DNA of 39,420 nt from Candidatus Omnitrophota bacterium (GTDB taxonomy: Bacteria > Omnitrophota > Gorgyraeia > Zapsychrales > Fredricksoniimonadaceae): the NCBI GenBank assembly GCA_015233145.1, contig JADFYI010000003.1, positions 1 to 39,420 of the forward strand, in the 5' to 3' direction. A model generated the notes under the pieces. That model saw only the letters and a list, made by a program, of their open reading frames with translations, had not been told where the DNA came from and made no database searches. Of the stretch, positions 32,690-35,123 are shown one piece after another. Both the position numbers and the translations under genes were made by a program. How positions within the stretch are numbered: the stretch's first letter is position 1; every line of letters begins with the position of its first letter.

Positions 32690-32711
32690 GAGAATGTGTT
32701 TTTTATAAGCA

Positions 32712-32736
32712 GGGGCAGCCTTAAGGCTCCCTTTTT
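32712..32736 (+). terminator. Terminator or attenuator directly before pyrE
   Basis: AGCCTTAAGGCT (32717-32728) is a perfect palindrome, extended by GGG (32713-32715) with CCC (32729-32731) past one bulged C, and followed by five T residues (32732-32736). The pyrE ribosome site GGAGG (32737-32741) begins at the next base, leaving no room for a separate promoter after the hairpin. Confidence 0.65.
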
Positions 32737-32746
32737 GGAGGACAAC

Positions 32747-33310
32747 ATGTCACAAATATCAATTTCCGACTGCAAGAAAAGGTTGTTTGAAATTTTAAAG
32801 ACCCAGGCTTTTTTAAAGGGCGATTTTACATTATCGTCGGGGAAAAAGAGCAATTATTATCTGGATGCCAGGCTGGTCACGCTTTCTGCCGAGGGAGCTT
32901 TTTTGTGCGGAAAGCTTATTTATGACCTTGTCAGGGATAAAAATCCTACAGCGATCGGAGGCCCCACCCTTGGCGCAGATCCCATGGTCGGCGCAGTGGG
33001 CACTGTGAGTTTTCTGGATAAAACTCCTGTCAAAACGTTTATTATCCGCAAAGAACCCAAAGGGCATGGCAAGGGCAAAATGGTTGAAGGCCCGGAGCTT
33101 AAAAGCGCAGACCGTATTGTTATTATTGATGATGTGGCAACCACAGGCAAGGCCTTTATCCATTCGATTGACGCCCTGGCTCAGGATGGGCTAAAACCTG
33201 TTGTGTGCGCCTGTATTATTGACCGTCAGGATGGCGCCAAAGAAGCCCTTGCCGCAAAAGGCGTTGAATTAAGGTCTTTGTTTACAGCCACGGAATTCTT
33301 GAAAGATTAA
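32747..33310 (+). CDS. pyrE: Orotate phosphoribosyltransferase
   Basis: PyrE joins orotate to PRPP to make OMP in pyrimidine synthesis. The 187-residue protein has the PRPP motif IVIIDDVATTGKA, the flexible-loop residues RKEPKGHGKGK, and TLSSGKKSNYYLD near the start, all standard. The ATG at 32747 has GGAGG six bases away; an upstream GTG at 32696 would place the terminator hairpin inside the coding sequence and adds non-family residues. No other pyr genes are nearby. A hairpin with a T tract sits directly upstream and may control expression. Confidence 0.93.
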   Translation: MSQISISDCKKRLFEILKTQAFLKGDFTLSSGKKSNYYLDARLVTLSAEGAFLCGKLIYDLVRDKNPTAIGGPTLGADPMVGAVGTVSFLDKTPVKTFIIRKEPKGHGKGKMVEGPELKSADRIVIIDDVATTGKAFIHSIDALAQDGLKPVVCACIIDRQDGAKEALAAKGVELRSLFTATEFLKD

Positions 33311-33315
33311 ACTCC

Positions 33316-34689
33316 ATGAAACCGCTTATTCTTGCCTCGGCATCAGCCCAGCGTCAGAATTTGATGAAAATTCTGAACCTTCCTTTTATTGTGAAGAAAT
33401 CCAAAGCCCGGGAGATTCTTGAAATCAAAACCAATGTCGCGGATTTGGTTAAAGAGAATGCTTTTATCAAGGCTCTCGACGTGGCAGAAGAGCTAAAAGA
33501 GGGGCTTGTGATCGGCGCAGACACGGTTGTTTATGCGAATGGCAGGCTCGTCCTTAAGCCGGGAAGTCTTAAAGAGGCCAAGAAAAATTTAAAAATGCTC
33601 ATGTCTGCGCCTCACTGGGTTTATACGGGAGTGGCGGTGATTGATGCCAGGACCAAAAAAGCTTTGGTCGATTACGATAAAACAAAAGTTTACATGTCAA
33701 AGCTTACTGATGGGGAGATCGACCGGTATCACAGGGAAGTGCCTCCCATGGATAAGGCCGGCGGGTTTGATATTGAGGGCCGCGGCGGCCTTTTTATTCC
33801 ACGCATCGACGGATGTTATTTTAATGTGGTGGGCCTTCCTTTGGCCAAACTTTGCCAGATGCTGAAAAAGTTTGGCGTTCACGCGCTTGCCTTGGGGTTT
33901 GTTTTTACAGCGTCGTTTGCGGTCTCGGGCTGCAGCGGGTTGTCGTCGAATTTTAATACGGCGACCAACCAGGAAGAAACAACCATGTATTCCACGGACA
34001 GCGAGCTGCAGATCGGCGCTTCTGCCGCGCAGGAGATGGAGAAGGAATATAAGGTTGTGGATGACGTTGAGCTTAACAAGCGGGTTGATGAGATTGCCCA
34101 GAAAATTGCAGCGGTGTGTGACCGCAAGGAACTGGTGTATGTGGCCAAAGTTATAGACGAGAAAAAGCCTGGCAGGGAAAAAATCGTGAATGCCTTGTCT
34201 TTACCCGGCGGGTATGTGTATGTTTTTAGGGACCTCATGGATTATATCAAGGATGACGACCAGCTGGCCGCGGTTATTGCCCATGAAATCGGGCATGTGA
34301 CGGCCCGTCACAGCATCAAGCATTTACAGGCGTCTTATGGAAGCATGCTGGCGGTTTTGGCCGCCATCCCCGTGAACGGGAACCTGGCCGGGGGCCTCAA
34401 CGTGGCCTTCCAAACCATGATGTTTAAATATTCCCGGGAAGATGAGCTTGAGGCCGACCGTTTGGGCCTTAAGTATATGACCGCCGCCGGATTTAAGCCT
34501 CAAGGCATGGTCAAGATGCTGGAAAGCCTTGAAGCCTATGACCGTAAACAGCCTATTCGCCCCAAAACATATGAAAGAACCCACCCCTACAGCCACGAGC
34601 GCATTGCGGCCGTCAATCAGCAGATCAAAGGGGATCTGACGTTTCAGGATTATGTGAGGACAACCGGCGAAACAGATGGGAAGAAATGA
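33316..34689 (+). CDS. Maf nucleotide pyrophosphatase fused to M48 lipoprotein peptidase
   Basis: One unbroken 457-codon frame holds two unrelated proteins. Residues 1 to about 188 are a full-length Maf/YceF-type house-cleaning pyrophosphatase (ILASASAQRQNL start, GADTVV, DKAGGFDIEG, VVGLPLAKL end). From residue 182 there is a textbook lipoprotein signal: MLKK, a hydrophobic core, and lipobox AVSGC with the acceptor cysteine at C206. Then comes an M48 zinc peptidase with HEIGH (H323, E324, H327) and the third ligand E377 in ELEAD, like periplasmic BepA/LoiP. The MLKKFG segment serves both as a normal Maf C-terminus and as the signal's n-region. An in-frame ATG at 33859 could start a separate lipoprotein, though it lacks a clear ribosome site. 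It may be two products or one membrane-spanning fusion; a lost stop is also possible. The stop overlaps the next gene. Confidence 0.85.
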   Translation: MKPLILASASAQRQNLMKILNLPFIVKKSKAREILEIKTNVADLVKENAFIKALDVAEELKEGLVIGADTVVYANGRLVLKPGSLKEAKKNLKMLMSAPHWVYTGVAVIDARTKKALVDYDKTKVYMSKLTDGEIDRYHREVPPMDKAGGFDIEGRGGLFIPRIDGCYFNVVGLPLAKLCQMLKKFGVHALALGFVFTASFAVSGCSGLSSNFNTATNQEETTMYSTDSELQIGASAAQEMEKEYKVVDDVELNKRVDEIAQKIAAVCDRKELVYVAKVIDEKKPGREKIVNALSLPGGYVYVFRDLMDYIKDDDQLAAVIAHEIGHVTARHSIKHLQASYGSMLAVLAAIPVNGNLAGGLNVAFQTMMFKYSREDELEADRLGLKYMTAAGFKPQGMVKMLESLEAYDRKQPIRPKTYERTHPYSHERIAAVNQQIKGDLTFQDYVRTTGETDGKK

Positions 34690-35123
34690 CAGGTCAATTT
34701 TTTTATTCCTTGATATTTTTTGTGTTATCTTTTTTCTTTGCCGGATGCCGTGAGTCGGCTTCACAGCCGCCGCAAGCGTGTTTTAAAGAAAATTGCTTTA
34801 CTGTTGAGTTAGCCGTTAGCCCCGAAGAGCGTGAGCGCGGGCTTATGTACCGCGAAAAACTTGCTCAAGGGGCAGGCATGCTTTTTATTTTCGATAAAGA
34901 GGATGTTTATTCTTTTTGGATGAAGAACACAAAAATTCCGCTCGATATTATTTGGCTGGATTCCCAAAAGCGCGTTGTTTATATCGGAGCCAATATCCCG
35001 CCGTGCGTCAACGACCCCTGCCCCAGTTATAATCCTCTTAAAAAAGCCCTCTATGTCCTTGAAATCCCATCAGGTGCGGCTGTGAAAAGTCAGATTGCTG
35101 TTGGCGATGTGATGCGGTATTGA
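34686..35123 (+). CDS. DUF192 lipoprotein
   Basis: The 145-residue protein has a lipoprotein signal ending FFFAGC (acceptor cysteine near residue 21), then a DUF192 domain (about 35-145) with ERERGLMYREKL, GMLFIF, FWMKNTKIPLDIIW, and NPLKKALYVLEIPSG. DUF192 proteins are small exported or archaeal proteins of unknown function. Its ATG overlaps the M48 gene's TGA (ATGA), so the two envelope lipoproteins are translationally coupled. It ends immediately before the converging lpdA. Confidence 0.85.
   Translation: MTGQFFYSLIFFVLSFFFAGCRESASQPPQACFKENCFTVELAVSPEERERGLMYREKLAQGAGMLFIFDKEDVYSFWMKNTKIPLDIIWLDSQKRVVYIGANIPPCVNDPCPSYNPLKKALYVLEIPSGAAVKSQIAVGDVMRY

Follow-up and report, generated by a model that had tools for sequence, protein, structure and literature searches.

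Envelope proteases of the M48 family such as Geobacter Q74D82 (3C37), LoiP and BepA carry their signal peptide at the N-terminus and are not known to have a cytoplasmic partner. The production of two proteins from one gene is exemplified by the Bradyrhizobium fbcH cytochrome b/c1 precursor, which is cut by signal peptidase at an internal signal peptide, with both parts belonging to one membrane complex. Maf nucleotide pyrophosphatases are characterized by the signature motif S-R-E-K-D-K, and in human ASMTL a Maf domain has been found fused N-terminally to a predicted methyltransferase (PMC3899018). In a stretch of 39,420 nucleotides from a Candidatus Omnitrophota bacterium (contig JADFYI010000003.1, assembly GCA_015233145.1; hereafter the window), a Maf domain is followed in the same frame by an M48 peptidase. 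The significance of this locus lies in a lineage-wide joint of a cytosolic and an exported enzyme, in which the connector itself would be a signal peptide.

The original prediction, made from the letters of the window, had placed both enzymes in one frame, and this holds for the 457 codons at 33316-34689, which encode both Pfam domains at full length (Table 1), with the Maf match covering profile positions 1-187 of 187 (E 1.1e-48) and the M48 match residues 254-435 (E 3.2e-32). Assignment to Maf is based on 165.8 bits with PF02545 (cut-off 27) and 155 bits with TIGR00172 (cut-off 117), and assignment to M48 on 112.3 bits with PF01435 (cut-off 20.3) together with HExxH and the downstream Glu ligand. 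At the level of curated NCBIfam subfamilies, the protein is filed neither as LoiP (73.5 versus a cut-off of 365 bits) nor as BepA (95.5 versus 570 bits). The Maf signature residues S10, R13, E33, K52, D69 and K81 are all present in the window and, like H323, E324, H327, E377 and D381 of the M48 domain, are invariant in 46 aligned fusions, and from these residues both domains look like active enzymes. AlphaFold2 predicts two confident domains with the Maf and the M48 fold, which are connected by a low-confidence linker at approximately residues 190-209 and have an undefined relative position.

Table 1. Coordinates of the joined gene, its parts and its neighbours in the window
Feature	Position	Strand	Remark
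maf::M48 joined gene, 457 aa	33316..34689	+	ATG start, TGA stop; one uninterrupted frame of 457 codons
Maf nucleotide pyrophosphatase domain, residues 3-186	33322..33873	+	Pfam PF02545 and invariant columns
MLKKFGV, residues 182-188, including ATG 33859	33859..33879	+	End of the Maf C-terminal helix, equal to the positive n-region
Hydrophobic h-region and lipobox HALALGFVFTASFAVSG	33880..33930	+	Begins at the position of the final residues and stop codon of separate Mafs
Lipobox Cys206 (TGC)	33931..33933	+	Predicted point of lipidation and LspA cleavage
M48 metallopeptidase domain, residues 254-435	34075..34620	+	Pfam PF01435; 3c37 match by sequence and fold
Zinc-binding HEIGH (H323, E324, H327)	34282..34296	+	Invariant in 46 aligned fusions
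ELEAD, region of the third zinc ligand (E377, D381)	34444..34458	+	Invariant in 46 aligned fusions
Upstream phosphoribosyltransferase (pyrE-like)	32696..33310	+	Separated from the maf start by 5 bases; listed as context
Downstream DUF192 protein with own N-terminal signal	34686..35123	+	ATG overlaps the M48 stop (ATGA)

The subfamily marks of the window Maf are mixed, with Gln12, Thr70 and Glu154 (33349-33351, 33523-33525 and 33775-33777) fitting neither the R-T-Q set of YhdE nor the W-Q-E set of YceF; many other Omnitrophota Mafs have Gln at the third subfamily position. Another complete Maf was not found in the scanned joined genomes of the order to which the window belongs, with one genome (G066) as a possible exception. 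There, a second Maf match lies in two pieces inside an open frame of 1788 codons (contig C166:9803-10468).

The joint of the window reads MLKKFGV-HALALGFVFTASFAVSG-C with the lipobox AVSGC, and the in-frame ATG at 33859 is indeed, as had been noted originally, the codon of Met182 that opens MLKKFGV. Separate Mafs of relatives end with MLKKFGV[HS]xL and a stop, and it is at this point that the hydrophobic stretch of the joined genes starts. The proposed overlap of Maf and signal peptide in QMLKKFG is accordingly real as a shared stretch, but with the separate Mafs ending approximately three residues later its extent is about 10 rather than seven residues. In all joined genes it is Maf itself that supplies the positive charges of the n-region, with a mean net charge of 1.60 versus 1.10 in unjoined Mafs (p = 0.018, uncorrected for relatedness), while separate M48 genes possess a start and an n-region of their own (for example MRKIFLSVLAGIVCCLAGC) that are absent from the joined ones. 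A hydrophobic stretch followed by [GAS]-C, as expected for a lipoprotein, is present throughout the 90 joined genes described below. The lipobox Cys is found in 90/90, preceded at position -1 by Gly in 88 and by Ser or Ala in the other two, and a charged residue within the 12 positions before the Cys occurs only once. Of the 90, 69 conform to a strict PROSITE-like lipobox pattern, and the others deviate mainly immediately upstream of the -1 residue. Between the last Maf motif, GCYxNVVGLP, and the Cys the distance is 34-44 residues, with a mode of 36 (42/90). Nine of the 10 genomes tested encode the maturation enzymes Lgt and LspA, whose domain matches lie 70 bases apart in the genome of the window. 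A search of the window for other internal lipoprotein signals returned, besides maf::M48, one weak pattern near an N-terminus. The DUF192 protein downstream (34686-35123) has an N-terminal hydrophobic signal that ends in AGC and is likely a lipoprotein.

In order to assess the distribution, loci were drawn from searches of three overlapping sets of relatives (55, 81 and 384) and read individually. Among 136 loci from distinct Omnitrophota genomes, 90 have the joined frame, 37 have Maf and M48 adjacent yet separate, and nine have a Maf without M48 found alongside, one of these at a contig end. The joined state, at 90/136 loci, is far beyond chance; one joined gene (genome G153) is located on a single 1.97-Mb contig. 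The joined frame in related genomes, for which a search had been suggested with the original prediction, is hence found in 90 genomes, with the Maf stop present in the 37 with separate genes; a uniform arrangement of two genes with a conserved stop, named there as counterevidence, is not what the relatives display. The fusions are spread over many families of the phylum at 42-73% identity, and both states are interleaved on a tree of the Maf and M48 proteins with at least 14 changes, at least seven of them forced by well-supported branches; the tree is a quick, unrooted one with many weak forks, and the changes may be fusions or fissions. In genus g8, for example, the one genome with separate genes is nested inside three joined ones. 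In G003, at 73% identity the closest relative of the window, ...MLKEFGVHAL is directly followed by a TAG and then by a fresh signal peptide. In two loci of the separated state (L002 and L067), Maf and M48 share a frame that is interrupted by a TAG or TAA, with a new signal peptide thereafter; recent fission, a fusion intermediate or stop readthrough are possible explanations. The long upstream frames in some genomes were considered as an N-terminal pyrE-Maf fusion, which was rejected as the upstream residues are not PyrE-like.

A second partner of Maf occurs in genus g11 of the same family, where the M48 neighbour is missing. In four genomes of this genus (L061, L062, L064 and L065), Maf is continued in frame by DUF192, the two being connected by [ML]LKKFGV and a hydrophobic stretch whose end (RADA, VQAA, YAAA or HAGA) resembles a signal peptidase I site; the sister genomes L056-L058 have two overlapping genes with the Maf stop over the DUF192 start (ATGA). 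Fusion at the same point to another protein shows the joint itself, as far as these sequences predict, to be the key.

The best explanation for these observations is probably one two-enzyme precursor, a small polyprotein, from which Lgt and LspA would release the M48 lipoprotein. The Maf domain of such a precursor would fold in the cytoplasm, while the end of its last helix (LKKFG) and the hydrophobic stretch would serve as an internal Sec signal peptide, in N-in orientation, for transport of the C-terminal part across the membrane. After lipidation of Cys206 by Lgt, LspA would cut before this residue. Two products would result: an M48 metalloprotease present as a lipoprotein in the envelope, and a cytoplasmic Maf that would keep, at least initially, the signal peptide as a membrane tail at its C-terminus and could work while tethered to the membrane or once the tail has been removed. 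From the sequence features of the joint we infer how the chain is oriented in the membrane, that it is lipidated and cleaved, and what becomes of the Maf tail. One argument against this precursor is that signal peptides do not usually follow a folded domain of approximately 180 residues. The conserved lipobox points to a chain that is cut apart, so that the fusion need not mean joint function. Equally, a functional link is not required by the sequence, because the two states interchange and Maf joins another exported protein likewise. The joint of Maf and M48 is presumably tolerated because the maturation enzymes cut it. A further-reaching possibility, which we consider rather doubtful, is that maturation not only makes the envelope protease but also a Maf tethered by the spent signal peptide, in a fixed 1:1 ratio and with the supply of Maf tied to the state of export.

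The main rival to the precursor is a stable uncleaved protein, in which the joint would be a signal anchor. Maf would then sit on the cytoplasmic side and M48 on the outer side of the inner membrane, and nucleotide clean-up would be coupled to proteolysis in the envelope. A true fusion had been one of the two readings offered originally, and the retention of the joined frame across many families with both active sites intact bears it out as far as the frame is concerned; this retention across 42-73% identity, which might reflect a benefit of tethering, and the narrow linker length of 34-44 residues with a mode of 36 would suit a stable protein. An uncleaved anchor, however, needs neither an invariant lipobox Cys nor a Gly at -1, and the repeated interchange of joined and separate states speaks against it. 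Furthermore, Maf is fused to DUF192 in the same way, there with AxA-like sites, so that a specific partnership of Maf and M48 is unnecessary. We regard a stable bifunctional membrane protein as unlikely.

The other original reading was a nested gene, with the M48 lipoprotein originating mainly from the internal start ATG 33859 and the long form being minor or accidental. This ATG is suitably placed for the n-region, and a start codon is found in that column in 72/90 joined genes, but Met182 is a normal Maf residue, present in 40/45 unjoined Mafs versus 71/90 joined ones. In the region 14-40 codons before the Cys, 16/90 joined genes lack an ATG and three (L093, L124 and L144) lack any ATG, GTG or TTG, and no alignment column carries a start codon in all 90. 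For these three genes the long precursor is the sole possible source of the lipoprotein, barring a rare start codon, and a nested start is therefore not the general mechanism. The ribosome-binding signal at candidate internal starts is not above that of random coding sites (p = 0.99), and separate M48 starts score higher (p = 0.03); the test is a weak one, in which Maf starts score low as well. An internal start would also leave the widespread absence of the Maf stop unexplained. With the absent start codons and the ordinary Met182, an obligatory start at ATG 33859 can be ruled out, and an internal start as the main source of the lipoprotein is very unlikely; a minor product from an internal start may be made in some species. 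Finally, a sequencing or assembly error masking a Maf stop, suggested by the TAG in the nearest relative and the origin of the window from a metagenome-assembled genome, is next to impossible, being ruled out for the family by the joined frame in 90 separately assembled genomes, always running into a lipobox.

Beyond this locus, the repeated switching between joined and separate genes and the DUF192 partner provide a natural test of how far from the N-terminus a signal peptide can be located. Catalogues of lipoproteins limited to N-termini would miss the M48 protease, and automatic annotation may name joined genes after one half only. A description of a Maf-M48 fusion or of internal lipobox signals was not found in the open-access papers searched, which are a part of the whole literature.

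With the Maf pyrophosphatases YhdE, YceF and Bacillus subtilis Maf (1EX2, 4P0E), the window protein has in common the full domain, the fold and the six signature residues, but it extends beyond the usual Maf C-terminus with a signal peptide and an exported enzyme. As in human ASMTL, Maf is located N-terminal to another enzyme; the joint in ASMTL is, however, without a signal peptide, while the partner in the window is an envelope protease beyond one. With Q74D82 (3C37), LoiP and BepA it shares the M48 domain with HExxH and ExxxD, and the LoiP model aligns from residue 197 onwards, including part of the signal peptide, which in the window protein starts at residue 182 instead of the N-terminus and would be N-terminal only upon use of the internal start. 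As separation at an internal signal peptide is already known from fbcH, the principle is not new and the Maf-M48 arrangement is a variant thereof, distinguished by a soluble cytosolic enzyme as one part and by a lipobox as the predicted site of separation.
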